Shown: positions 10,917-49,902 of the stretch, one piece after another
How the letters are laid out: each line of letters starts with the position of its first letter
Position numbering within the stretch: position 1 is the first letter of the stretch
Assembly (NCBI GenBank): GCA_018873225.1
Contig: JAEILZ010000002.1
Coordinates: forward strand, 620,001-684,000
Reading direction: 5' to 3'
DNA: 64,000 nucleotides
DNA from: [Phialemoniopsis] sp. UDSM-2020
Taxonomy: Eukaryota > Ascomycota > Sordariomycetes > Thyridiales > Thyridiaceae
Notes under the pieces: generated by a model
What the model was told of the DNA's origin: nothing
Databases searched by the model: none
The model's input: the letters and a program-made list of their open reading frames with translations, nothing else
Made by a program: the position numbers and the translations under genes

Positions 10917-12248
<1,332 letters not shown>

Positions 12249-12343
12249 GGCTTAGACACCTTGGCTCAATGAGCTTTCTCTTATCACTTGCAACATAACC
12301 AGTAATCGGTTCCTCTCTATGAAACGCATAAGGTTGATGTCCT

Positions 12344-12796: not shown

Positions 12797-13612
12797 ATGG
12801 TGGGCGTGGGAGAAACCGGGATCGCCAAACCCAGTCATCAGAGGAAGAAGAGGTTCGCTCCCAGGGCGAGAACCGGATGCTCGACGTGCAGGTGCGTATC
12901 TTTATCGTGGCCTCACTTTCCCCCGCGCACGTTTATCTAATGCATATCCAGGATCCGAAAAATCAAATGCGATGAAGCTCGTCCATGCTGCCGCAAATGT
13001 ACTTCCACAGGACGGGCCTGCGACGGCTACTTAGCAGCGCGGCCAGCGGTACTGCCACAGCCCACCTTCCTGCCCCTTCCGGCGGACCAAGTTGACAGAG
13101 AGACCCTATACCTCTTCCGCACGAGAACTGCCATTCGGGTCTGTTCCGCTTTCGACGTTAGGTTCTGGGACCGCGACTTTCCCCAGATTGCCAACACCTA
13201 CGTCCCTGTTCGACATGCAGTCGCAGCACTAGTAGTGGCGCATAGCAACGCTCCTATCCCTGGAGAGCCGAAAGATCCTGCATACTGTCACTACGTTCTA
13301 TCGCATTACACAACGTCCATGAACATCTTACATGCGTGCCTGAGCAGAAAGATCGTCTGCTCGAAGACGGACCAAGTTGTCGTGCTGTTCCTCAACCAAT
13401 TGTTCTTCTATTTGTGCGGAATCGTCGGACTTGCATCAGAGGCCAATGTCCATCTTCGCAGTGGCTTAGCACTACTGCAAGAGTGGAAACTGGAGTACAA
13501 TGATGTGAATAGAGGGAAGTCCTCGGCAACGCCGATCGATTTCGTCTTGTCAGCCTATAAAAGACTCGAGATGGAAATAGGAATAAGGTCAACTCATCGT
13601 GATAATACATAA
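12797..13612 (+). CDS. short Zn2Cys6 transcription factor
   Basis: Two exons, 12797-12891 and 12952-13612; 251 residues. Splicing joins TGCSTCR to IRKIKCDEARPCCRKC, giving a complete zinc binuclear cluster (C-x2-C-x6-C-x6-C-x2-C-x6-C, from Cys28) preceded by basic residues KKRF. The rest contains YCHYVLSHYTTSMNIL and VVLFLNQLFFYLCGIVGL, matching the start of the fungal-specific helical domain of this class. It stops after about 220 residues of that region, far short of the usual 500-700. It may be truncated, or a further exon may be missed. Divergent to the OYE reductase, which could be its target. Confidence 0.72.
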
Positions 13613-13677: not shown

Positions 13678-15763
13678 CTAAGAACGCACCCACCACCGGG
13701 GCATTTTACGTAGGTTAAGTATGCTATGTTTCACGACCTGCCCAAATTTAATGCCTTGATTTCCAACAGATAGCCACGCACTCGTTCCTGGATCCCAAAC
13801 CTCGATCGCGTTCTTTGTAGTTCCTACTGCAAGTCGCAACTTCGAATGCGACCAAGCCACTGCATTGAACTGATCTGACGTGCCCGGGGTCCTTAGTGTA
13901 AGTTCACACCTGCTTGTTGTCAAGTCAAAAATTTTCACCCATGCCTGACGCGCAGTACACACTGATGCAAACTTTGTCCCATCAGGTGACCAAACGAACT
14001 TAGGCCACCAAGCCTTTTGCGATTCCAGAAATTCGCGCAATATCCAGCGTCTCACCGCTGCATCCCATATCATTTCCACTCTCTCGTCATGTAGCAACTC
14101 GAAATGTATATTGTTGACCGTATAAAGGAGCGCCATATCATCGTCAGGATTGCACCTCCATATCTCTAGGCCCGTCGCGGTGTCCCAAACTTGTACTCGG
14201 CTATTCTTGTAGGTTAGGAGGCAAGTTCCATCATCCGACCAATCTATCGCTTTGATTATCTCACTCCAAGGCGACTGGGGCAGCCTTCCTTCGAGTGTTA
14301 GGAGGCTCTTGGCAGTCGCGATGTCCCAAATTCTGACAGTTCCGTCGCTATCCCCCGACGCGAGCCGGGCTTTATCTCGCGACCATGCTATACATGTTGG
14401 TGGTCGAGGGTTCTTCAGTACCGAAACAAGGTTGGCGCTCATCGTATTCCAGATCTTGATTTCCGGGGCTGCCGACGCGAGCAGCAGACCGTCATCAGCC
14501 CATTCTAAACGATACTGGTACGTAGGGCACTTGGGACAGTTCCCATGCTGAAACGATGATAGGCATAAGCCGGTCTGCGGATCCCAGATCTGAATCTTTC
14601 CCTGAATCGTCATTGTAGCAATCTTTCCAGGGTGGTTTGTGTGTTCTAGGGTACTTGGCCGATGCTCCTTGGAGGCTAACTCCGCTTCGTGCTTTCTCTG
14701 CTGCTCCTTCATCGCCGTCTCAAGCGTCGCGTATCGCTCGTTGTGCAGTGTTTCCATGCTCGTACGTAGGCTATCCTGCGCTGCTCTGATCTGGGCAAGC
14801 TCCTCGTTATACTCAGCGCGTATCTCCATCAAGTCAGCATCCTTCTTCTGAAGCGCCTCCCGCTGGTCAATTTCGAGGGCTCGCAGTTCCTTAGTAAGCC
14901 GTACAAGCTCTTCAGCCAGCTTTGCATCGACATTTCCGGCAGCAGCGGTTTTGTCAAGGTTTTTGCATTGATCCACCATCTCCTCCTGGATCTCCAGTGT
15001 CATTTTGCTGTCGGCCTCAACAAAGTGGCTAATGATGTTCACGGCCGATTGGCGTGTGTTGTCATGTCGGTAAGCGGTGCTCCCTCTAGAACGCATATAT
15101 CCCCAGAACTCCTTGGTTTCCAGCAGTTGTTTCTCTCGCGCGGCGCCGGCATGATCGTCAACCAAGTCCCACATTGTGGTTGCCAGCACGACATTCTTTA
15201 AAGCCTCATCGCCACAAAGCTCTTTGAACAACGTTATATTTCTCTTGGCCGAACCTTGCATGCGTGGTTGGTTGATACGGTGAAGATATATGATACCTGA
15301 TAGCCGGATCTTGCTAGCGTAGGTTGCGGTCAACCAGGCCGCTAGCTCTCGAAGGACCTCGGCATCGCTTCGGTTACTGTCGTCGAAACCCGGGGTGTCG
15401 ACGAGAATGATTCTCTTTTGTGGAGGGCCATCGTAGACAAAGGGATACGTGTCGACTAACTGTGTGCCTGTGTGTAGGAATACGTGGTGGATTAGCTAAC
15501 CCGAATGTCCGAAGAAGTAGGAGTGGCGAAATGCCATGTGCCCAACCTACACGACTCTAGATCATGTCCAATAGCCGGTTCCCTATCAGAACACAATGCA
15601 ATGAGGGAACTCTTTCCAGCCCCGGTCATGCCCATCAATGCGATTATGACATCGTTGGTACTAAAGACACTCAGTCACACATAAGTCATTGGGATCAATC
15701 CAGAGTTTGGAGGAAGACATGATACCTCGGGACGACTCCATCGGCAAAGAGTTCAGTAGTCAT
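13678..15763 (-). CDS. AIG1-like P-loop GTPase with coiled coil and C-terminal WD40 repeats
   Basis: Three exons, 15763-15726, 15660-15551 and 15467-13678; 645 residues. The first two tiny exons supply the start and Walker A. GMTGAGKSS is at residues 23-31, DTPGFDD (G3) at 73-79, and TTMWD is a G4-like block. About residues 240-350 form a charged coiled coil (EIRAEYNEELAQIRAAQDS and neighbours). The C-terminal half has at least five WD-type strands (GKIQIWDPQTG, PEIKIWN, GTVRIWDIATAKS, RVQVWDTATG, NAIEVWDPGTS) and should form a propeller. GTPases of this AIG1/septin-like class switch or oligomerise with GTP; the propeller suggests ligand recognition. It is divergent to a paralogue 504 bp away. 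Confidence 0.85.
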
Positions 15764-16267
15764 GATGCTGATCAGACTATCGCCGATTCCTAGACTTTGT
15801 GCGCCGGCAAGGTGTTGTCATCGACGACCTCTGTTAAAGCCACCAAGGAAAGTTCTGAGGCCTTGATGGAGTATGCGCAATGTTCCGCTAGTATGTTGGG
15901 GGAGTAGAAAAGAATAGGCGAGATGCAAATGGTACGGTTGTAGGGGAGGCCTCTCTGATCATAATCCTCAGCCTGATGGATGCCCGAGGCGCTTAGGTTG
16001 CAGGACGAGCAAGTGGCATGCATGGGTGGCCATCAATGATATCACGCCACGAGGCAGAATAAAACCTGCGCGTCCAGCAAATGTGTGCTCAGCCTGATGC
16101 GGAATTGCGAGATGCAGCTGCGGGGGTTCCAGGGTGAACGATCTAGGAATTCTCCCATCTTCGTTTCACTCTGGTCGAAGAATTCCACCTTATATCTGCA
16201 GGCCATTTTCCGCTTTTGAACTCGATTTCGCAAGAACTTCTGCACTTGCTTAACAGAGCGCATCACC
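15764..16267. promoter_or_regulatory. shared divergent promoter of the GTPase pair
   Basis: Only 504 bp separate the two start codons of the paralogous GTPase genes, so both promoters must lie here and co-expression is plausible. A minus-strand open frame (15790-16023) inside it has no domain. I see no clear TATA box. Confidence 0.5.
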
Positions 16268-18011
16268 ATGCCGTTCGAGACAGCTGTCCTTGAAGAAGAT
16301 GTGGACAACTTTCTACAGTTCGCAGGAGCTGCGCAACCTAAGTGAGACTTCCTTGCTCCAAGGCACCAGCCATGTACTTAAAGTATCATTAGACCGAACC
16401 CTGTCTTCATCGCGGTGATGGGTATACGGAATCCTGCTGCTTCTCCCAACCTGTATCGCTCTTAACATTTCATGCAGGCATGACGGGATCTGGAAAAAGC
16501 TCGTTTATCAGCGCAGTCACTGGCCGAGACGACGTCAAGATTGGCCACGAACTCTCATCTTGTAGGCATACCTGGGTGCTCTTCTCCATTATAACGCCTA
16601 CAGGCTGATTCAGTGGACCAGGCACCGATTCTGTTGGCATTTTTCACTACGAAGTGGAAGAGTATAACGTGTATTTCATAGACACGCCGGGCTTCGACGT
16701 CAGTTTTTGTGCTGAACTGGGGTTTGACCATGCTTCGAATCTAACCGGCATAGGATACGAATCGATCGGACTTGGAGATTCTCAAATCTATTTCACATTT
16801 CTTTTCTGTGGCTTATGCGAACAAGAATCACTTTCACGGGGTCATTTACCTGTACCCGATATCAGAACCACGGATCGGCAGATCAAGAAAGCTCAACATC
16901 GAGATGTTCAAAGCACTCTGTGGCGAAGACGCTTACTCCAACGTAGCTATACTGACGACTAGGTGGTCGACCGACACTTCCAGCAAGGAATATGATAAGC
17001 AGACTGCACGAGAACAGCAGCTGAAAGAGGAGTACCTCAGCGAGATTCTTGGTGCCGACGGTCTTCTACGTCGGTTGAAGAGTGAGGAACGCTCTACTGT
17101 TGACGTGGCATCCGCAAAGACCATCTTCCGAGAATTATTTGACTTGTGGAAAGACGACAAAGTAACCTTGTCCATTCAACACGAACTGGTCAACGGCCGT
17201 GTCTCTATCAATGAAACTGCTGCTGGGAAGGTGCTTGCCCGCCATATGAACGAGACAAGTGAGAATCTCAAGGCCAGCCTGATCAAGTTGAGCGAGGACA
17301 TCAAAGCAACCAGGGAAGCCAGCCAGGAATCAAGTTCTCAGCAAGACGAGGCCGAGGCTTTCTCACAAGGGCAACAAGCAGACTTCAAGCATTCCCTCGA
17401 CCAAATTCGCGCCGATCAAGAAGCCATGCACGTATCTCTACTAGAAGTCCACGTTCAGGAGAGGGAGCGTCTCACAGCGCAAGTGGAGGCAATGGAATCT
17501 CGATGGCGCCAGGAGCTTGCCTCAAAGGAGCGTGAACAAGTCCTCCGTGAAGAGCTACTCGCAGAGATGCGAGTTTCTGCGCTTCATAAAGATTCCACCA
17601 TCGCCGAATTGCGCGATCGGCAACGGCAAGTAGAGCTTCGGCGTCGGGAACAAGCACAGGTGCAAAGACAGCAACTGGCAGTCTCCTCACGAGAACAGCA
17701 ACGTAGGCAAGAATGGGAGGGGCGTTACCACGCAGAGCTGGTGCAGCAGGGGATGTGGCGCGAAGAGGGATATAAGGCGGAGCTAGCGAGGACGCGGTGG
17801 GAGCTAGAGAATATGCGAGCCGACTTTGAGAAGAGGATGGAGACGACAGACAAGGCGAAGCGGGCGTGGGTTGGACCGTTGCTTCAGGGAGTGGCGTCGG
17901 GTGGATTGGGTTTGGCAGCTTCATTGATCACGGCTGGTGAGTTGGCCTCTTTTGATACTCAATGTCCTTTGCGCTAACGTATTCATAGGAATGTTATGCA
18001 TCGTGCAGTGA
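16268..18011 (+). CDS. AIG1-like P-loop GTPase with long coiled coil and C-terminal hydrophobic segment
   Basis: Six exons: 16268-16341, 16393-16421, 16478-16561, 16622-16698, 16754-17936 and 17989-18011; 489 residues. Each join is supported by alignment to the paralogue: VMGMTGSGKSS (Walker A), IGHELSSCTDSV and DTPGFDDTNRSD are all created by splicing. The frame after residue 88 runs through HGVIYLYPISEPR and LTTRWS. A very charged coiled coil (QEQ/RE-rich) fills about residues 215-450. The end is GVASGGLGLAASLITAG plus a 23-nt last exon adding MLCIVQ, a glycine-rich hydrophobic helix that could insert in a membrane. It lacks the WD40 propeller of its neighbour. Probably a membrane-linked partner; the role is unknown. 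Confidence 0.82.
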
Positions 18012-18762
18012 ATGTAGAGCTTGACTTGGAGAGTCGTGCAACTACAGTAATGAGGAATTACTGGCACATGCCTACATCGTGAATGGAGGATACAACGGGG
18101 TATCGATGAGATAGTCTCCGGGAACGTTCGATAGTGTGTCCGGTCCAGTATACAGTAACCGTCATTAATTACCCGGGAGTCATCGGGTATGGACTGCACA
18201 ATGTGGTATGTGCCGTGAAAGATAGGTTGCTTGACCCGGGGGGCTGTGGACTACGCGACCTGTTTCAGGCCAAATATGCACGTTCTGCGCATCTGCACAG
18301 CATCTTCGTTAACACGGCCAGTTGTGGCGGTGCGAAACACTGAATGCGCGTCTCATTGGGTCTGGCATGCGATTTATGGGACGGCGCTTAGAAGGACCAA
18401 GCTGTCGGGTCGTCCCCTCATCGGATAGCTCCCTAATTGGTGCTATCCTGGGGCCTTTTGCACACCCATGCAGGGGTTTGTCGGAGGATCACACACGTTG
18501 GGAATCTTTTGCAGTCGTGCTGAAAGGCTCACAGCGCAAATGTCCAGGATTGAGACGTTTCCCCCTGTTCATCCGGGGAAGCCGGTCAGGGTGACTGCTT
18601 ACTACCACATATCTGATTCGAAAGGGCGCTTAAGACCGGCCAGTCTCCATTCGCGAGAAAGCACTCTTTATCCCATTCTGCACCTCTTTGACACCCTCTT
18701 CAAAGACAGAGGACTAGAACAAGGAGCTGCCGTCAACCGTACCGATTAACAGTACCGAGCCA
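18012..18762. other. intergenic, about 750 bp
   Basis: Lies between two genes in the same direction. Short plus-strand frames (18134-18343, 18322-18594, 18468-18749) have no recognisable features. It presumably holds the 3' end of the GTPase gene and the promoter of the ATPase gene. Confidence 0.4.
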
Positions 18763-21700
18763 ATGTCAGCGCCCGCTGACCGCGAAAGTGCAAGGAGGCT
18801 CGTTGAGTCGATCTGCAAGAGCCATGGATATCTTGGAGAGGACACACTTAGGAGGATGGAACCCGGTGTCCGCCTCGAAGTCGAAGAGGCGTTGATGCGG
18901 AAGGATGAATTGATCGGGGATACCGTCATAACGTGGGTTCCAGACAACTCTCGTCGCCCTGAAAGCATTTACTGTTACGCTAATTCCACCCAATAGACTC
19001 GCGAAGAACCTCTACACGAGCAAGGCTCGATTCGTTTTCGAATTGCTTCAGAATGCTGACGACAACCGCTACGACAGGGCAGCCGCGCTGGGTGATATAC
19101 CCTTCGTGTCCTTCCAAGTCTACCCTAACAAGATTGTGGTGGACTGCAACGAAGATGGGTTTACCAACGAGAATCTCACAGCCATTTGTGCTGTTGGCAA
19201 GAGCTCCAAAAAGGGAGCGCAGGGCTACATCGGCGAGAAAGGCATTGGGTTCAAGTCTGTTTTCATGGCAGCATGGAAAGTCCAGGTCTACTCGGGCGCC
19301 TTGTCATTCTGCTTCACACACAAGGAGGGCGAGTCGGGGATGGGGATGATATCCCCGGTATGGGAGAACACCTGGCCAGAACTGGACTCACCTCTGACGC
19401 GATTTGTCCTCCACCTGCATGACACTGGTGACCCAGATTCCCTCAAGAGGGCGTACGAAGCCATTCACGAGCAATTCCAGGAGCTCCAGGAAACCTTTCT
19501 CTTGTTTACCAAGAATTTGAAAGAGATTCAAGTTAGCTTCCACGAGAGGGATGGTCGGACTACATCCTACACGAGGTACTCTATTGACCCCCTGCGCGCC
19601 AATCTGGCCACTCTCCGAAGGGTGCGGAGATCCAACGGACCGCCAGTGGAGCGTGTGAGACGATTCCATGTCACCAAGCACGAAGCCACGAACCTCGCCA
19701 AGAACGAGAACCGGACGTACTCCAAAGATGAAGAAGTCTCTAGAGCATACTCAAGATCACAGGTGGTCATGGCTTTCCCGCTCTCGAATATCTACACTCC
19801 CATTGTTGAGCAGCAGGATCTCTTTGTATTTCTCCCCGTACGAGCTGTGGGTTTCAGCTTCCTTATCCAGGCCGACTTCGTTACCGATGCGAGTCGCCAA
19901 GATATTGTTCGGGATTCCCTACGCAACCTTGGCCTCCTTGACGGCATTGCCGAGGCTTTTGTCAAGGCCGTCGTCCAGCTTTGTCATCAAGAGGAGACCA
20001 AATGGACGTGGATGCGCTTCCTGCCGGATAGGAAAGCCAATCACTGGGGTCCGCTCTGGCAAGCCCTGATCCAGAAGATGGCTCTTTTGATGGCCAATAC
20101 ACCATTCTTGTACGGGAGATCAAAGGAGCACCCCCGTCTAATATCAGAACTGTTCCGTCTGCCGTCAACCTTCGTGGATGGCGACGGTACACCATTCCTC
20201 GAGGATGGAAATCCGGAAGAGATCATCTCTAACTGCTATGGGGCGGCCGACTTGAACCTTCTCGTTCCATATGGATTTCAGACCGCCCACTATGGCCATT
20301 TTATCAAGTGGCTACAGCTGGACCTGATGGGTGCCGTCAGCTCACGTATGACCTCCAGACAAACTTCTGATTCCTGGCATAGCCAGGTGGCGAAGATTCT
20401 TCAAATTCCATTTCAGAAGCAATGGCCTGACACCAAAAACCAGCTACTTTTGCTAAATCTCTTACCATTGCAAGATGGAACCTGGACCAATACGTCATCA
20501 CGCCCAGTCTACTTTGCACACGTGGACGGTCTTGAAATTCCCACAGACATTGGAATCCGCTTGATTCGCAGCGACATCACAAACCCGGAGCGGATCGCCC
20601 TATTTGGGTATCTTGGCGTCCAGAAGGCAAGTGCCACTCTTGTCAAAGACAAGATCCGCGAGAGATACAGTTCTGGAGTCGTGATCACCCTCGAGATTTC
20701 GAAGCGACACCTACGATTCTTCTACATGTCTTTTGAAGAAGGCCAACGTCCATCTGATCGCGCGCACTCATGTAACAACTTATACCTCTTGAACAGCAAG
20801 GGCACTTTGTTCAGACCTTCTTCAATAAGATGCTATATCGCGGATGAAGAGCCATACGGTGCTCAAGAGCTATTTCGTGAAACAGCCCCAGGTCCAAACC
20901 CTGGAGATGGTGCTCCCGGTTTTCAGGACGCCGTATTCGTCCACAAGGAATACTTTGTCGAACCTCCCCCGACTCCCTCACATGGCAAAACGTGGCTGGA
21001 GTGGTGCTACTCACACTTGCACATAGACTACCACGTCCGGTGCACTTCAGGAGGCTGGGAACTTGAAGACGCTGGCAAATACATTAAACAATACAGACCT
21101 GAGAAATTCTTGGGTAGTCTTCTTGTCGATTACGATAACTTCGGCTTCTTCTCAGAATCACTCATCGAACATTTCCTCGAAACCCAGGTTCTCTGCGTTA
21201 GAGGCCAGATGGTCGCCTTCAAGAAGACCTATTTCCCGACCCAAGGACTGATGCATCGCGTAGACCAGTACATGCCAAAAGGAGCATTCTTCCCTTGGCT
21301 GTGGCTGGATTCTTCTCTTGGTGCGTGTGAAACAATTCCGATTGGCTGGAGGAAAATGCTTGAAGCAGTAGGTGCGGGCATTCCTCGGAGTAACCTTGAG
21401 TTTGCGCTGGACATGCTCAGGCACTCCACCCTCAACATCACTGCTGAAGATGAAGCGCGGCTCTTCAGCCTCTACTTTCATATCTACAGCGAATGTATAA
21501 CATGGAGAGACAGGCAACGTGCCGGAAAACTGATAAGGTATGCTTGAAATCCCTTCGACGAGTCAGCCATTCTAATCTACAGTCAAGAGACACCTTTCTG
21601 GAGGCTCCCCGTATATATATCCCACGGAGCTGCGATGGTGATGAAATGGACCTCGTCCATCTATCCGAATGCGTTTGGGAAGCGCCACAGAGGTTGGAAA

Positions 21701-24224
21701 GCGTCTATGTTCTCAGTTTGATCTACGAGCCGATCTTCCGTGATGACAGCGCCTGGAGGTCACTGGCTCCCATTCTTTTCAAGGACATTCTGGGAGTTCG
21801 TCCTGTCTGTACATGGGAAATGTACCTTGCGGAACTCGAAAAGCTCCGCGAATTGGAATGTGACGACAGCGATATCATCACTGGCATCTACTTGGCACTG
21901 CACGGACTACATTTACGGCGGTCAATATTTGGTCTGAGCAAGGAACATCTCAGGTAGACATCCGACCAGGATTTACGGAGGATCAACCGCTAACTATCCT
22001 TTCTAGAAACACCTTTGCAAACAGTGCGCTCATCTACGCACCTGCGGATGATGGCAACAGCTGGCGTACTTCTTCGGAATGTGTTTGGTCCAGTGCGGCT
22101 CGTCTTCGCGGGAAGGTGTCATTGAACGATGACTACGAAGAGCTGGAAAAGCTGTTTGTGGATCTTATTGGGGTCAAACTTGTGGATCTATCAATGGCTA
22201 TTGATGAGCTCAAAGAGCTTGGCAACAACCCTTCTTCCTCCACAAAAACTCTGAAGGAGGCTATCATGACTGTCAACTCGCTACTGGTCACGGAGGATAA
22301 ACTTCCTGGCCCAGAGGATATCATCAGCGGAAAGATTTTCCCAGTCAAGAATCCCAACGGTATTGTTACAAGAGCTTTGATACACACGCAATTCTTCCTC
22401 GTCGACCGCGAGCCACTCAAAGCCGCGTTCGACGGCAAGGTCAAGTTTTTGGACTTCGAACTAGACCAGATTCGACAGCTACGACCTTTTATCGAATGGG
22501 CAACTCTTGAAGACAGATATGTGTCTCGTTGCGTCAAAGAAATAACCTCATTTCCGGGCGCGGGAGCTTGTCCGATCGTCAACCAAGACAGGCAGATTCA
22601 ACGTCGAGCATATGCACTGCTGAGGTAATGTCCATCATACTATAACCTAGTCCACTACCCAATCTACTAACCAGCCGTAGAATCGCTATGCATTACGACA
22701 GTCCGCGTACAAATTGCCAAGCCGACGCACAGGTCTTCTATGATGTTTTAAGGAACGCCGAAGTGTACGCAGCAGATGGAATTTCTTCGGATCTCGAACT
22801 AAGCCAGGACGGCAAAGAGCATATTGTTGAGGGCAAGCGAGCAACTCTCCATATCAACGAAGACGTTTCGGGTCTGAAAGTCTACGTTCCACGGAAGAAG
22901 AGGGATCAGGAGGCATTATTCGCACGGCTCCTGCCGGAAAAGCTGTTTGAGTGGATGATGACCTCCGCCACGACGCAGCAAATGAACGCGCGAGTCTTGG
23001 ATAAAGACGGCATCATCGCGACAATGAAGGTTCTAAGCGTCCCACGTTCGACGATGTCTGATACCTTGGAGGATCTGGGCATTGCGACGATTGATGTTGC
23101 GAACCTTGATGAGGAAGAATTGTCAGAGTCCGAGGACGACGAATCCGAGACACCGGAACGAGTGAGCGCTGGAAGCCCCGCGGACTCGGCAGCTGAAGAT
23201 GAATGGGATGACGAAACAGCTATTCGCGAGACTCCCATCTCATCGACAGCAAGTCCTTCGCCACACATCAGCATCGTCGCTGCTTCAAGTGCGCTCCGCG
23301 GGCCTGCACAAGCGAGGCCCCGCATGGCTTTAGGGGGTCCATTGATGTCGTCGACCCCACGACACAACGTTGTGCCAGTGGCACAGGCGCAGCCTGCTAG
23401 CCCGAGTGGTGCATATGCGACACTATTGAGGACCATTGTTACCGCAGCTCGAGGCGCGTCACTCCCCAGCATTGGCGTCTTTGACATGAGTCTTCTCCAT
23501 GAGAGTCTTCCCAACATCGATGATCTCGGCCCAGAGAGTCTGTCTGATCTGGGTGTTCGCTCGCAGGCCCAGATTGAAAGGGACTGCAAAGTGGGCGCTG
23601 CTGGAGAGCTTTATGTATGTTCAACCTGCTACTAGGTGTTCTGATGACTGTGCACACTACTGACATTCAGGTAACAGGTCTTCGAACTCCTCTCGCATCT
23701 TGACCCACGACTGCCAGGTTTCTCGAGGGCCAACTGGCCGAGTACCATGCGTCGCTACGTGACAGTGCATCCCGACTATGCCGACATGGAGCCGTGGTAC
23801 GGGCGAGAGACATCGGACATTACGTACACTGATGCCCAAAGCTCTTTGACTGAACAGTTCATCGATAAGGGGTACCTCAATGAGACCTGGAGGGGAAAGA
23901 AACCGCAGTACTTCATCGAGGTCAAGACATCGACTGCATGCTGCGAGACACCATTCTATGTTAGCAAGTCACAGTACCAAAGAGTGGGTCTAATGGGCTA
24001 TGTGATACCGTTGCTGAAGCTTCGACTAACAACCTGAGCAGATGAAAGACAGCGCGAGGCGCGCACTCGAGCACGAATGCATTTACGCCATCTTCCGCGT
24101 GTATAATCTCGGCCGGAATAACATGGGTCTTCGAATCTACATCAACCCGGAAGAGTTGCGAGAGTCGGGAGTTCTGAAGTTCAGGGAGGAGGGCTGGTCC
24201 GTCGTGCCGGGTAATGATGCTTGA
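18763..24224 (+). CDS. HSP90-like (sacsin/NO VEIN-type) ATPase with C-terminal nuclease-like DUF3883 domain
   Basis: Seven exons: 18763-18932, 18997-21537, 21588-21953, 22007-22624, 22681-23614, 23678-23983 and 24042-24224; 1705 residues. The N-terminal GHKL ATPase has ELLQNADDN (Glu72 general base, Asn76 for Mg), NEDGF with Asp110, and the lid loop GYIGEKGIGFKSVF (133-146), so it should bind ATP. A long alpha/beta middle follows, then an acidic low-complexity linker of about residues 1380-1480. The C-terminal part has GAAGELYVFELL, SDITYTD (Asp1590) and YFIEVKTS (Glu1624, Lys1626), the pattern of PD-(D/E)XK nuclease-like folds called DUF3883. Plant NO VEIN and animal sacsin share the ATPase; the fungal role is unknown. 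The exon 2/3 acceptor is AAG rather than the usual CAG or TAG, chosen because it restores LIRDTF, parallel to HLRNTF at the next join. Confidence 0.83.
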
Positions 24225-30814: not shown

Positions 30815-31893
30815 ATGCATCTCCCGTTCTTGGTCTTCACTGCGTGGCTCTGCATGATTGCACGAGCCACTGCGATTTCCGGCCTACAGATCGTCCACGA
30901 GCCTACCAACCCGACGATTGAGTAAGATGAAGAAGCCTTCCATAATCCCTTATGCTTGTCTGACATGTAACAACCGGTAGTATCGTCTTCGTCCACGGCT
31001 TCACTGGCGATTCCACTCAAACATGGACTTATCAACCGAGCTCCTGGGCTTCCTGGTTCCCCTCGTCTTCCGAGCAGGAGATCTTCTGGCCGGCAGACTT
31101 GCTCCCGACATTGATCCCTGATGCGCGCATCATCGTGTACGGCTACGATACAGCAATCAGCTCTCCTCTCATGGGCACCAGACAAAACAAACAGTCTCCC
31201 TACGATTTCGGAAAGAACCTTTTGAACAAGTTGGAAGATCTGCAGAAGCCAAACCCTGGTCGTCCCATGGTGTTCGTCGCCCACAGCCTGGGCGGCAATG
31301 TAGTCAAGGAGATGCTTATCCAAGCATCACATGCTCCCAAGAAGCATCAGCTTCGTCATAAGGTCTACGAGATGACAAAAGGCATCATCTTCTTCGGCAC
31401 GCCCCATTCCGGAGCCGATCTACCCTTGTTACACAAACTTGCCCAGAAGATCGTAACCTCTATTTGTCTGATCGGCATTAACAATCAAATTTTCGATTCT
31501 TTCATTGGTCGTAACGACTGGATGAAGAGGCTCAAGGACGGATTCCCTCCTCTGGTTTATGAACAACATTGGCCGATTCACTCCTTCCAGGAGTCTTATG
31601 GAAAGTGGTGGCTCTTCGGTTATCAGGTATGGCCTTTGGACAAGTCTCATGATCTCTCTCTGACAAAGGCTCAGGTGGTACCAGAGGAGTCGTCATCGTT
31701 GGGACTGGCTCCTTTCGAGAAGACGTGTCACCTGGAGGGTGATCACACAGAGATGTGCAAGTTCTCCGGCCTCGATGACCCCCAGTTTGAGCCAGTCAAG
31801 CATGCATTGATGGAAATCTGCAAGCCGTTCATGTCTGAGGAGAGCAAAGGCCTGATGTGCCCGAGAACAACGAACCTGGACGCCTTGAAATAA
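30815..31893 (+). CDS. SesB-like alpha/beta hydrolase (SERAC1/DUF676 type), solo
   Basis: Two exons, 30815-30921 and 30981-31893; 339 residues. The join gives PTIDIVFVHGFTGD, the typical start of SesB/SERAC1-like hydrolases, with the oxyanion HG. WPADLLPTLIPDARIIVYGYD follows. The nucleophile elbow is VAHSLGGN with Ser138. IIFFGTPHSG follows, and GDHTEMCKFSG near the end gives the likely catalytic His. In many fungal NLR-like (STAND) proteins this domain is the N-terminal effector in front of NACHT/NB-ARC; here it ends after the hydrolase. The first 20 residues are hydrophobic (FLVFTAWLCMIARATA), so export or membrane anchoring is possible. Confidence 0.85.
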
Positions 31894-46908: not shown

Positions 46909-48023
46909 TATGAAGACTGGAGGATAAAGTCACACTGAAGGGAGCGTTATATTCCGTTGTGGGTAAAGACAGGACAGGACTTTTGTAAGGTGGCGATCAA
47001 AGTGTAGAAGAATCATAGGTGTTTTCAAATAAAGCTTTTAGACAAAGCTCCTATTAGTCATCTGGGAACTAAAGATTTGAATCCCATGATTCGCAGTAAC
47101 AAAGGTTCGAAGTAAACCTGGTTGATGCTTTGACCAACAACCCTTGTGGGACCAACAACGAATGACATGGCTCGGTCGTCCGAAGACGCAGAGCCGAATA
47201 TCTCACAGTACGGGTCATGGAAAACTCCGCTGATTCAGCAGGAACCAACTTACCCGCACGGAAGGTTGTAGGTATGTATATCTAAGACCCAGAAGGTTTG
47301 CTTGACCATGATTCGCGGGCTGTGATTCGATTTGAGTACACACGAGGCCGGCCGGCGCGACGTTCTTCTCAGGTACATGAGTGCTAACACGTAGCTTCCG
47401 TGGGCTAACTGCTTCTCCAATCTTTTTTTCCCTTTCCAAATCCGAACAAGCAGTGCAGTGGAACTCTACGGCTATTTGGGCCTAACGCAGATTGTTTACT
47501 CTCGCCGCAGCAAAGACCACTGTTACTGATTCACGTCCCAAAAATAGACCCTTCGGCGTAAGAGTGCCAATGCTGCAGCTCCCCTCCGGGAGTACCCGTC
47601 CCCGCCAATACAGAGACCAGGATGTTCAGCATGGTAAACAGTTGCGTGTGGGGCCATTCGGACCCGAGCTCTTGTTGATATGTCATGTCCTCATGTAGAT
47701 ATGTTTCGCCTAGAGCAACAGTATCGACACTTGCACGAAGTCTTCTTTGCCTCATCATTCCCTCCTCGCCGTGCTGCATCGTAATACCTCAGCTCACCAA
47801 CCCTCCAACCGGAAGAGCCACCGACTTGTTTCCTGCCGTTGCTGACCGCCCTCGCCCGCGTTACGAGCAGCTGCAGCGAGCCTGAGAGATCCATCCCCCA
47901 ACACTTCTGATCCAACCTCCCTCACCAGCCTGCCATGCTGAAGTACTCGCAAGATTACCAGTGGTTATCTTGTGAAGGACCTTTAAGCATCCTCTGGAGC
48001 GTGAGCTACTGCCTCTGCTCAGA
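46909..48023. other. intergenic, about 1.1 kb
   Basis: Divergent region between the lipoyl-domain gene and the second HET gene. Frames of 60-80 codons (47215-47439, 47531-47779, 47691-47915) have no recognisable features. Confidence 0.4.
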
Positions 48024-49902
48024 ATGTGGCTCATCAACATCGCATCAATGAGGCTGGAGGAGTTTACCCCGCCCGATCTGCCCAAGTACGCCATCCTGTC
48101 CCACACCTGGGAGCAGGAGGAGGTGTCGTTCCAGGACTTTGCAGATATAAACCTAGCGAAAAAGAAAGCTGGGTTCTCAAAGATTAAAGAGTCGTGCGAC
48201 TTGGCTGTTGCCAAGAAGCTTCAGTATGTGTGGGTCGACACGTGCTGCATAGACAAGTCGTCCAGTGCGGAGCTCTCCGAGGCCATCAACTCCATGTTTG
48301 AATGGTACAAATTATCCACAGTCTGTTTCGCTTACCTATCGGATCTCAAACCTACTGCCCTCAAGAACTCACCGAATTTGTGGGTGAACGAGGAAAGGAG
48401 AACTGTGTGCCGCTGGTTCAGGCGCGGCTGGACGCTGCAAGAGCTCTTGGCCCCTTCGCGTCTGGAGTTTTATGACAGTGCGTGGAATTATAAAGGTCTC
48501 AAGACAGACTCGTTGGTGATGAAACAACTGTTTAAGATGACAGGAATCTACGAGTCGAGGGTGTTCTATAATAGCGACACGATACAAGAGATTGCAATCG
48601 GGGAAAGGATGTCTTGGGCCTCCAAGAGGGAAACAAAAAGACTGGAGGACATCGCGTACTGTCTGCTTGGTATTTTCCAAGGTAGATTGCTCCGACTTCT
48701 TTCATCAGAATCTGGACTGACTCAATGCCCAAGTCAACATGCCTATGCTGTACGGAGAGGGCATGCGCGCCTTTCAGCGTTTGCAGGAAGAGATCATCAA
48801 GACCAGCACTGACATGTCGATATTCTGCTGGAAGGCAAGGCACAGAGACAGGCGCTATCGTGGTCTGCTGGCGGAATCACCGGCCGAGTTTGCATCATAC
48901 TATGACACGGCTCGCGAATCTCAAAAGTCTATCAGTTGGAGCTCGGAAGGGTCGGAGAAAGAGTTTCTTGTCACTAACAAGGGAATTCGCATTGACGCTG
49001 AGCTGGTGAACACCCCACACGGGGTCGGGGGTCAAATGGTCACCGCGTTACGATGCAACTTGCGGCCCGACGATTACGTTGTCCTCATCCCAATCAGGCA
49101 TTTTCGAGACAACGTCTACGTGAGGCAGATGCCATACATGATTGTGGCTTCCGACTCGGCCGAAGTCGAAAATAAGGTTGTTTACATTGCCAAGAACATT
49201 GACCGGCGGATGAACCATGACCTCACCGAGCACCTAGACCCGACGTTATCCTTTGTTATCTCCCCTACGCCTAGCGCTTTCCAGTTGGCGCACGTGAGAA
49301 GCTGGCCAGCAGACCAGTGGAAAGCTAGCTTTCAGCAATTCCAGCTAACGAGCGCCAAGATCTGTACCTGCATCGTTGTGTATCAACTCAGGCACCAGGG
49401 CCAAGCAAGGGGTGAATTTGCTGCCATTTGCCAGAGAAACGCCTCAGCAGCTCAGTCACTACGTTATGCTTTGGTGGATATGAAGGAGGCCGGCTACATC
49501 CTGGAAATGCTGGAAGGGAAAATCGAAGAAAGGATTGCCGCCCTTGCGTTGATGGAGAAGTTCATCGTCGCTGGAAGACAGACAGTCGAGGTCGAATCCG
49601 AGGGTCGACTCATCAATTTATTTGTCTCGAGGTATGCGCCCGACAACCGGAAGCAACTTAATACTCTTTACATATCACTCGCCACTACCGACGACCTTGT
49701 TGTGTCCAAGAGGAATAAAGAAATGGGACCTTCTGCAGAAGCCGTCAAAAGATCCAAGAACTTGGAAGATTTGGCCCCAGAAGAGCTGGTTCCCGCTGTG
49801 AAGAAAGCTGAGGCGCCAACAGACCCTGGGCCGCGGCTGATCGAAATTGAGTCGGTCGAGCAAGTGAAGTCGGTTAATGACTTGGATCACCTGCATACTT
49901 AG
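48024..49902 (+). CDS. HET-domain protein (HET-D/HET-E-like N-terminal type)
   Basis: Two exons, 48024-48681 and 48734-49902; 608 residues. The HET domain occupies about residues 1-230. MWLINIASMRLEEF starts it, YAILSHTWE is at 22-30, YVWVDTCCIDKSSSAELSEAINSMFEWY follows, then RRGWTLQELLAPSRLEFYD. Splicing yields GIFQVNMPMLYGEG, a motif at the end of this HET subclass. This is the version found at the N-terminus of HET-D/E-like NLR proteins, but here no NACHT or WD40 repeats follow. The C-terminal 350 residues are a fungal-specific region with no motif I know, ending in a charged tail. Predicted to trigger cell death on non-self recognition. Confidence 0.9.

Follow-up and report, generated by a model that had tools for sequence, protein, structure and literature searches.

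In a window of 64,000 nucleotides from the fungus [Phialemoniopsis] sp. UDSM-2020 (the whole stretch of DNA analysed, positions 620001-684000 of the contig labelled C4, in a genome of 44.18 Mb and 11 contigs), two divergently transcribed GTPase genes, here called A and B, were identified as relatives of the GIMAP/AIG1 (paraseptin) proteins. We propose that their products may act as a two-protein switch, with A as a soluble sensor and B as a prenylated membrane partner, and we give this reading a probability of about 0.45. At the level of sequence it rests on the anatomy of the two proteins, on the linked and co-varying pairs that were found, on asymmetric divergence, on a CaaX box and on a conserved arginine. 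The pair is laid out as follows, in window coordinates.

15763-13678, minus strand: gene A, GTPase of GIMAP/AIG1-like type; coiled coil, WD40 beta-propeller; 3 exons, 645 aa, spliced model
15763-15726, 15660-15551, 15467-13678, minus strand: exons of gene A
13681..14661, minus strand: propeller-coding part of gene A, a putative sensor; residues 319-645 as cut for the identity comparison, and Pfam
15764..16267, no strand: A-B intergenic region, presumed bidirectional promoter; 504 bp between the start codons
16268-18011, plus strand: gene B, a GIMAP/AIG1-like GTPase with a long coiled coil and a Gly-rich hydrophobic tail; 6 exons, 489 aa
16268-16341, 16393-16421, 16478-16561, 16622-16698, 16754-17936, 17989-18011, plus strand: exons of gene B
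17997..18008, plus strand: CaaX box of gene B, codons C-I-V-Q and then the stop, inside the 23-bp last exon; read from the sequence and gene model, with orthologue tails as further evidence

An earlier note on this DNA, made from the letters alone, had described these two genes and a third, C, downstream of B. The extents of all three and the 504-bp gap between A and B held in the spliced models, as did the divergent arrangement of the GTPases and the WD40 part of A, which had a Pfam WD40 match. The same note had assigned both GTPases to an AIG1-like family. This was borne out for B, which matched MMR_HSR1 and AIG1 (PF04548, 30.8 bits, cut-off 27); A matched MMR_HSR1 and WD40, and AIG1 was not among the families listed for it (25 of 30, E 0.01). 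NACHT or NB-ARC domains were not matched at E 0.01 either in A (25 of 30 families listed) or in B (6 of 6). The P-loop of A is at residue 23, and those of four relatives (P0241-P0244; P-numbers denote listed homologue proteins) are at 22-23. The nearest named protein relatives among the matches listed were from fungi, including Parahypoxylon, Biscogniauxia, Hypoxylon and Thyridium. The intergenic region contained short direct and inverted repeats only, no tandem repeats were found at the DNA level in genes A, B or C with Tandem Repeats Finder, and Rfam (gathering threshold) and tRNA scans of the window gave no match.

The two genes were found together in other fungi. In the A and B homologue searches approximately 8,000 candidates were scored for each gene and the best 120 were listed, and pairs were assigned by hand from the listed matches. 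In all nine assemblies where both homologues were listed, they were on one contig. Consecutive gene tags were seen in Thyridium curvatum (E0L32_002349/002350) and Sporothrix curviconia (000490/000489), and the other linked cases were Hypoxylon sp. NC1633, H. cercidicola (where A is represented by the propeller fragment P0318 only), a metagenome contig of only 7,896 bp, and Xylaria flabelliformis, X. bambusicola, X. venustula and X. arbuscula. Among the matches listed there was no assembly to which A and B could both be assigned and in which they lay apart; Sporothrix stenoceras was not classifiable, and X. venustula had an additional B on a separate contig.

The G domains of A and B belong to two separate clades. 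In a FastTree phylogeny of 241 G domains the A-clade contained 18 proteins (support 0.997) and the B-clade 33 (0.928). With IQ-TREE, 15 A members and 19 B members each received an ultrafast bootstrap (UFBoot) value of 100 on 73 selected sequences, and in a fast run on 227 sequences the SH-aLRT (Shimodaira-Hasegawa-like approximate likelihood ratio test) values were 98.7 for A and 98.3 for B. The B models of Thyridium and Sporothrix were too short and were left out of the IQ-TREE runs. Both clades split into two matching lineages (UFBoot 99 and 100 in A, 100 and 99 in B), and the FastTree distance matrices of nine pairs, our own and eight others, were strongly correlated (r = 0.94, Mantel p = 0.0004). 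In both matrices the Hypoxylon pair was nearer to the Sporothrix and Thyridium pairs than to the Xylaria pairs. Since Hypoxylon and Xylaria belong to the Xylariales, and Sporothrix and Thyridium to the subclass Sordariomycetidae, the pair lineages do not follow the species. The Hypoxylon A protein P0251 was placed in the Xylaria lineage, and P0251 and P0242, which are Hypoxylon A proteins from different species, are of different lineage types. With P0251 in the Xylaria lineage, transfer and an ancient duplication followed by loss are equally likely.

The two proteins have diverged in opposite ways towards their C-termini. When A was compared with nine A-clade proteins having a long propeller part, the G domain had a mean identity of 60%, the coil of 31% and the propeller of 22%. 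Against 16 B-clade proteins chosen for complete annotated tails, B averaged 52% over the G domain and 31% over the coil, and 72% over its final 30 residues. The Xylaria A proteins P0254 and P0257 were 97% identical in the G domain and 71% in the propeller, and four other Xylaria A comparisons gave 65-81% and 24-44%, respectively. In six comparisons of one Xylaria B with its relatives the tail was 70-90% identical and the G domain 75-90%. By the mean identities, the propeller is the fastest-evolving segment of A, and the tail of B is more conserved than its G domain, an asymmetry that would be expected of a sensor combined with a fixed membrane part.

The C-terminus of B reads ...GGLGLAASLITAGMLCIVQ, and its last four residues, CIVQ, have the form of a CaaX prenylation box, a feature which the earlier note had missed. 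The FastTree B-clade of 33 proteins, our own B included, was used for the CaaX counts. Cys at position -4 together with Gln at -1 was present in 19 of them, with the endings CCVQ (13 proteins), CIVQ (2), and CIIQ, CCIQ, CVVQ and CEIQ (one each). Twelve of the remaining 14 keep a recognisable tail with another annotated end, and two (P0138 and P0148) are without the tail. In five of these twelve (P0121, P0126, P0127, P0145 and P0146) the residues ITA are directly followed by GE or GK, as expected of an unspliced donor site. In the wider family, Cys at -4 was found in 61 of the 235 GTPase homologues listed (P0121-P0355), and 53 of the 235 fit the strict CaaX pattern; in a control family, the NOV family, the numbers were 1 and 0 of 120. 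The A-clade had Cys at -4 in one of 18 proteins (CVNT, in a seemingly incomplete model). Some of the Cys -4 ends in the wider family directly follow Gly/Ala-rich hydrophobic segments, others coiled coils. Four proteins of the family (P0247-P0250) are 868-898 aa long and have a CaaX end; P0247, which was scanned, contains two G-domain stretches in one chain and could be a fused GTPase pair. The coiled coil and hydrophobic "helix" that had been described for B fared differently: in the predicted fold of its orthologue P0129 the G domain and coil were confident, and the tail had a predicted local distance difference test (pLDDT) score below 50, so that the membrane helix is hypothetical.

Structure comparison also pointed to GIMAP and related proteins. 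In a Foldseek search with the P0129 model, ranks 1-25 were GIMAP1/2/5/7 or Toc33/34, except rank 20 (7e58, GBP2), and apart from that rank the target-normalised template modelling (TM) scores were 0.50-0.63. The nearest solved folds were GIMAP7, GIMAP1, Toc33/34, GIMAP2 and GIMAP5. Sequence-profile ranking placed GIMAP4 first and GIMAP7 fourth, with GBP2 weaker at E 0.0067. The model of the A relative P0244 matched WD40 propellers, and the 50 Foldseek rows listed for it were all propeller proteins.

The residue aligned to position 108 of the GIMAP7 chain was Arg in 222 of 234 proteins and Lys in 11, with Arg in 17 of 17 A and 27 of 27 B proteins. Position 108 corresponds to Arg103 provided that the L100Q change named in the Protein Data Bank title is the Gln found at position 105, and Arg103 is what we take to be the catalytic finger of GIMAP7. 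By this alignment an arginine finger in the dimer interface is predicted for A and B. Arginine fingers in AIG1/GIMAP and TOC34 proteins are mentioned in the available text of PMC11238149. The G4 motif reads T-[M]-W-x, with Trp in all 240 sequences, and its last residue provides a second asymmetry between the partners, being Asp in 18 of 18 A and 1 of 33 B proteins. It differs from what we assume to be the usual base-recognition form of GIMAPs, and because of this unusual G4 we call A and B GIMAP-like, as a distinct fungal branch.

Further GTPase relatives of A and B were found in the same genome with protein queries, on contigs labelled C1, C5, C6, C10 and C11. A genome scan with PF01926 listed none of these GTPase loci among its matches, presumably because introns split the domain. 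Divergent GTPase pairs occur at three loci, namely the one studied here and the following two.

C11, 2545646 and about 2546607: start codons of the C11 pair
C1, 4902556 and between 4903154 and 4903366: start codons of the C1 pair

Both IQ-TREE runs placed the C11 B in the B-clade (98 and 98.4); read by eye, its last exon gives the ending CTIM. Its A-like partner (2547372-2548358, plus strand) has no propeller and ends in a Cys-rich repeat of approximately 110 residues (CNNCRDCYGC-like). With the 73 selected sequences, this A branched as the sister of the A-clade (99). In the 227-sequence tree the A members of the three pairs were in one group of 96 proteins (99.4), which held no B member of any pair. 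That both C11 genes descend from the same ancestral pair as A and B was considered and rejected, as the 227-sequence tree and FastTree supported common descent on the B side only. The C1 pair has a similar layout, one member having an unknown C-terminal domain and the other a Gly-rich hydrophobic stretch; the latter was near the B group in FastTree (0.64), not in IQ-TREE, and was not counted as a B relative. HSPA12-like Hsp70 genes were noticed by eye near the GTPases of C10 (about 3215640, plus strand) and C6 (C6:4222080, plus strand). At the first C10 GTPase no P-loop exon was found where the Hsp70-like gene begins, and the P-loop of the second is degenerate. The idea that such GTPases regularly have a chaperone ATPase nearby (HSP90-like at the present locus, Hsp70-like in C6 and C10) was not upheld, as the PF00012 matches listed did not contain those genes.

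The mechanism that we consider would operate in the following way. A and B would be kept together as a divergent pair, and B would be tethered to a membrane by the hydrophobic C-terminal tail and by prenylation of the CaaX cysteine, while A, being soluble, would bind a variable ligand through its rapidly evolving beta-propeller. The two G domains would pair face to face across the nucleotide and swap arginines into each other's active sites, and ligand on the propeller of A would alter the GTP turnover or membrane assembly of B, leading to a membrane-localised response. Prenylation, heterodimerisation, ligand sensing and a defence or nonself output are thus predictions, and a role of A and B in defence or allorecognition is conceivable. 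The idea of a sensor and a membrane partner, already put forward in the earlier note, receives support as a hypothesis from the A/B linkage, the co-variation, the fast propeller and the slow CaaX tail.

Several observations weigh against this proposal. Among the matches listed, no same-contig partner appeared for 23 of 32 B-clade and 9 of 17 A-clade proteins from the database. With approximately 8,000 candidates scored and 120 rows listed in each search, and WD40 words perhaps crowding the A search, either real absence or loss in the search may account for this. Pairing is demonstrated for a minority of the B relatives, and contig sharing says nothing of gene orientation. The C11 A was not sister to the A-clade on all 227 sequences nor in FastTree, and it has Lys at the arginine position. 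The C1 B-like member was outside the B-clade in both IQ-TREE runs and has no CaaX box. Our own B lacks one of two nearby arginines as well as the G4 aspartate. CaaX is a motif, from which the prenylation of B is predicted, and the ending CEIQ of P0125 falls outside the strict pattern. The divergence of the propeller, calculated from protein identity, may reflect relaxed constraint, and the high tail identity rests on the 16 B proteins picked for their complete tails.

It is also possible, though somewhat unlikely in our estimation, that A and B form a GIMAP/Toc-like switch that serves routine functions of membranes or organelles, for example at lipid droplets, vesicles or the vacuole, and is unrelated to recognition, with a weakly constrained propeller that binds a cargo protein. 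GIMAP2 has been placed on lipid droplets and membrane GIMAPs on organelles, according to sections of the GIMAP review (PMC8201404), and Toc33/34 are among the nearest folds. The propeller, unlike the sensors of HNWD proteins, is without DNA-level tandem repeats. Three findings fit less well with it, none of them decisive: the lineage types cut across species, the C-termini of A-like proteins differ between loci (a propeller here, Cys-rich repeats in C11), and the Xylaria A proteins show the identity gaps between G domain and propeller given above.

The crossing of species boundaries by the pair types would also suit a selfish or mobile two-gene element of the toxin-antidote or killer-like kind, in which one product restrains the other, and two tightly linked genes are described as common among fungal incompatibility systems in the part of PMC12881547 available. 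The presence of both lineage types in different Hypoxylon species is explained equally well by ancient duplication and loss, however, and both partners look like intact GTPases, so that we regard such an element as improbable. Alternatively, the linkage may be a mere relic of an ancient duplication in inverted orientation, A and B sharing a promoter and being expressed together without any joint action. A and B are indeed paralogues with a short common intergenic region, and many of the B relatives listed have no listed A partner. The two clades are nevertheless old, separate and mirrored through two lineage types, and the C-terminal divergence patterns of A and B are opposite, which makes this explanation quite improbable.

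The soluble sensor and membrane partner proposed here involve A and B only. The earlier note had counted C as a third component and pointed to nearby genes of fungal incompatibility type. The features concerned are the following.

18763-24224, plus strand: gene C, sacsin/NO VEIN-type, with an HSP90-like (GHKL) ATPase N-terminus and a PD-(D/E)xK-like NOV_C tail; 7 exons, 1705 aa
7358-9382: HET gene, at a distance of 4.3 kb from A; the interval holds two genes named by Pfam and one short frame
30964-31890: SesB-like hydrolase, DUF676 match, 6.7 kb beyond C
47976-48809: second HET-domain exon

C, described as a GHKL ATPase of 1705 residues, kept that length in the spliced model and had a Pfam SACS match (41 bits, cut-off 32.8). 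As for its nuclease-like tail, catalytic-type residues are present, E1541, D1590, E1624 and K1626 being conserved in 97-99% of aligned rows, and the match to NOV_C (PF13020, 19.8 bits) was below the cut-off of 22.1. In C and its 120 homologues, gaps omitted, the counts were 116/119 for E1624, 115/117 for K1626 and 113/115 for D1590, and for the GHKL residues 119/119 for E72, 119/119 for N76 and 118/118 for G141. The NO VEIN/sacsin family is widespread in fungi (1,447 matches at E <= 0.001 among 7,992 scored).

The linkage test which the earlier note had suggested gave a divided answer when applied to all three genes: A and B were linked elsewhere and C was not. In all eight same-tag assemblies, which were read by eye (Xylaria sp. 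FL1777, Nemania abortiva, X. castorea, X. flabelliformis, X. bambusicola, X. venustula, X. arbuscula NPX13, where the contig is just 10.8 kb and barely informative, and X. grammica EKO27), the C homologue was on a contig other than that of the A or B homologue. C was also apart in two further species, Nemania sp. NC0429 and Ustulina deusta, with the tag visible on one side only. These results concern the best 120 C homologues, and a linked paralogue elsewhere could be missed. The GTPase profile found no match in these 120 proteins; a Dynamin_N domain is listed for P0042. A single defence module of A, B and C, in which C would act as the ATPase-nuclease effector, is very improbable. In its favour, C directly follows B on the same strand, with 751 bp separating the coding regions, and retains GHKL and PD-(D/E)xK-like residues; DUF3883 is termed a novel restriction endonuclease domain in bacterial restriction-modification operons in an excerpt of PMC3710099. 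Against it, the C homologues sit on other contigs, and the other two C-type matches of the genome itself are at least 272 kb from the GTPase matches. C seems to be a neighbour and not a component of the A/B pair, and the overall interpretation of the earlier note is in this sense partly supported.

The HET and SesB-like genes are present, at looser spacing than had been implied. The genome contains at least 151 HET matches, and a HET gene was within about 5 kb of two of six GTPase loci (C5 included as the sixth), with a post hoc probability of about 0.03; this neighbourhood was considered too weak to serve as evidence for a module. None of 72 listed NACHT matches was inside the window. Between the HET gene and A, a short frame at 12941-13612 (plus strand) has a Zn2Cys6-like start by eye and no Pfam match; it stops just before the 3' end of A and resembles a truncated transcription factor. 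An old yellow enzyme gene (Oxidored_FMN) at 10917-12251 (minus strand) is split across two adjoining reading frames.

If the proposed switch is real, fungi would use a GTPase clade which serves immunity in plants and vertebrates. As a recognition switch, its two-gene format would make the sensor and the membrane partner separately testable, nonself recognition in fungi would extend beyond HET and NOD-like receptor (NLR) genes, and simple genetics would become available for the interplay of soluble and membrane GIMAPs, still hypothetical in the passages of the GIMAP review at hand (PMC8201404). For the wider fungal family, in which 61 of the 235 homologues listed have Cys at -4, the CaaX ends offer a cheap general prediction. 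A more general claim, that filamentous fungi have non-NLR recognition receptors made of split GIMAP-like, divergent pairs, in which an exchangeable-sensor GTPase controls a prenylated membrane GTPase in trans via mutual arginine fingers, appears unlikely to us at present; at least one NLR survey removed such families as non-NLR P-loop proteins.

AIG-type effector GTPases have been reported in bacterial conflict systems (PMC7159879, in part) and AIG1-Hint proteins in Glomeromycotina (PMC8778642, in part). In the text available of a review of fungal regulated cell death (PMC12881547), the word 'GTPase' is absent and 'GTP-binding' occurs four times. Published fungal AIG1/GIMAP pairs, or CaaX boxes in them, were not found among the papers listed. 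As AIG1-like GTPases and CaaX boxes in that family are already known, the new part is the linked divergent pair with its propeller partner and conserved CaaX tail.

Of the systems that resemble parts of the locus, sacsin and plant NO VEIN share with gene C the HSP90-like N-terminus and the NOV_C tail, and many fungal homologues are so named; C differs in belonging to a fungal family of approximately 1,700 residues and in its own NOV_C match being below the Pfam cut-off. GBP1 is, like B, a GTPase with a helical stalk and a CaaX box, and it is an immune protein and farnesylated (PMC10897159, partial text); GBPs are dynamin-type large GTPases and the match to them was weaker (GBP2, as above). The fungal NLRs HET-E and HNWD combine a nucleotide switch with a C-terminal WD40 sensor that carries specificity (PMC12881547, partial text). 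In them a single protein combines the NACHT switch with the HET effector, whereas no NACHT or HET match was listed for A and B. HNWD repeats are described as strongly conserved internally (same source, in part), whereas the propeller of gene A has no tandem repeats at the DNA level. The Arabidopsis AIG1 protein (IAN8) is a GTPase with an AIG1 domain, for which prenylation and a link to immunity are given in the portion of PMC6866125 consulted; it is a plant protein, and that portion does not mention a paired propeller partner.

Among the closest likenesses are the vertebrate GIMAPs, with the cytosolic GIMAP7 and the membrane proteins GIMAP2 and GIMAP5. They provide the nearest solved folds, occur as soluble and membrane-anchored paralogues and have the aligned Arg103-type arginine, and GIMAP4 and GIMAP7 are among the best profile matches. 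The fungal pair differs from them in the T-x-W-x form of G4 (relative to the GIMAP form as we take it to be), the WD40 propeller, the CaaX box and the divergent two-gene locus. The accessible text of the GIMAP review (PMC8201404), searched for 'fung', makes no mention of fungi. The same text describes that GIMAP7 promotes GTP hydrolysis by the membrane-bound GIMAP2.

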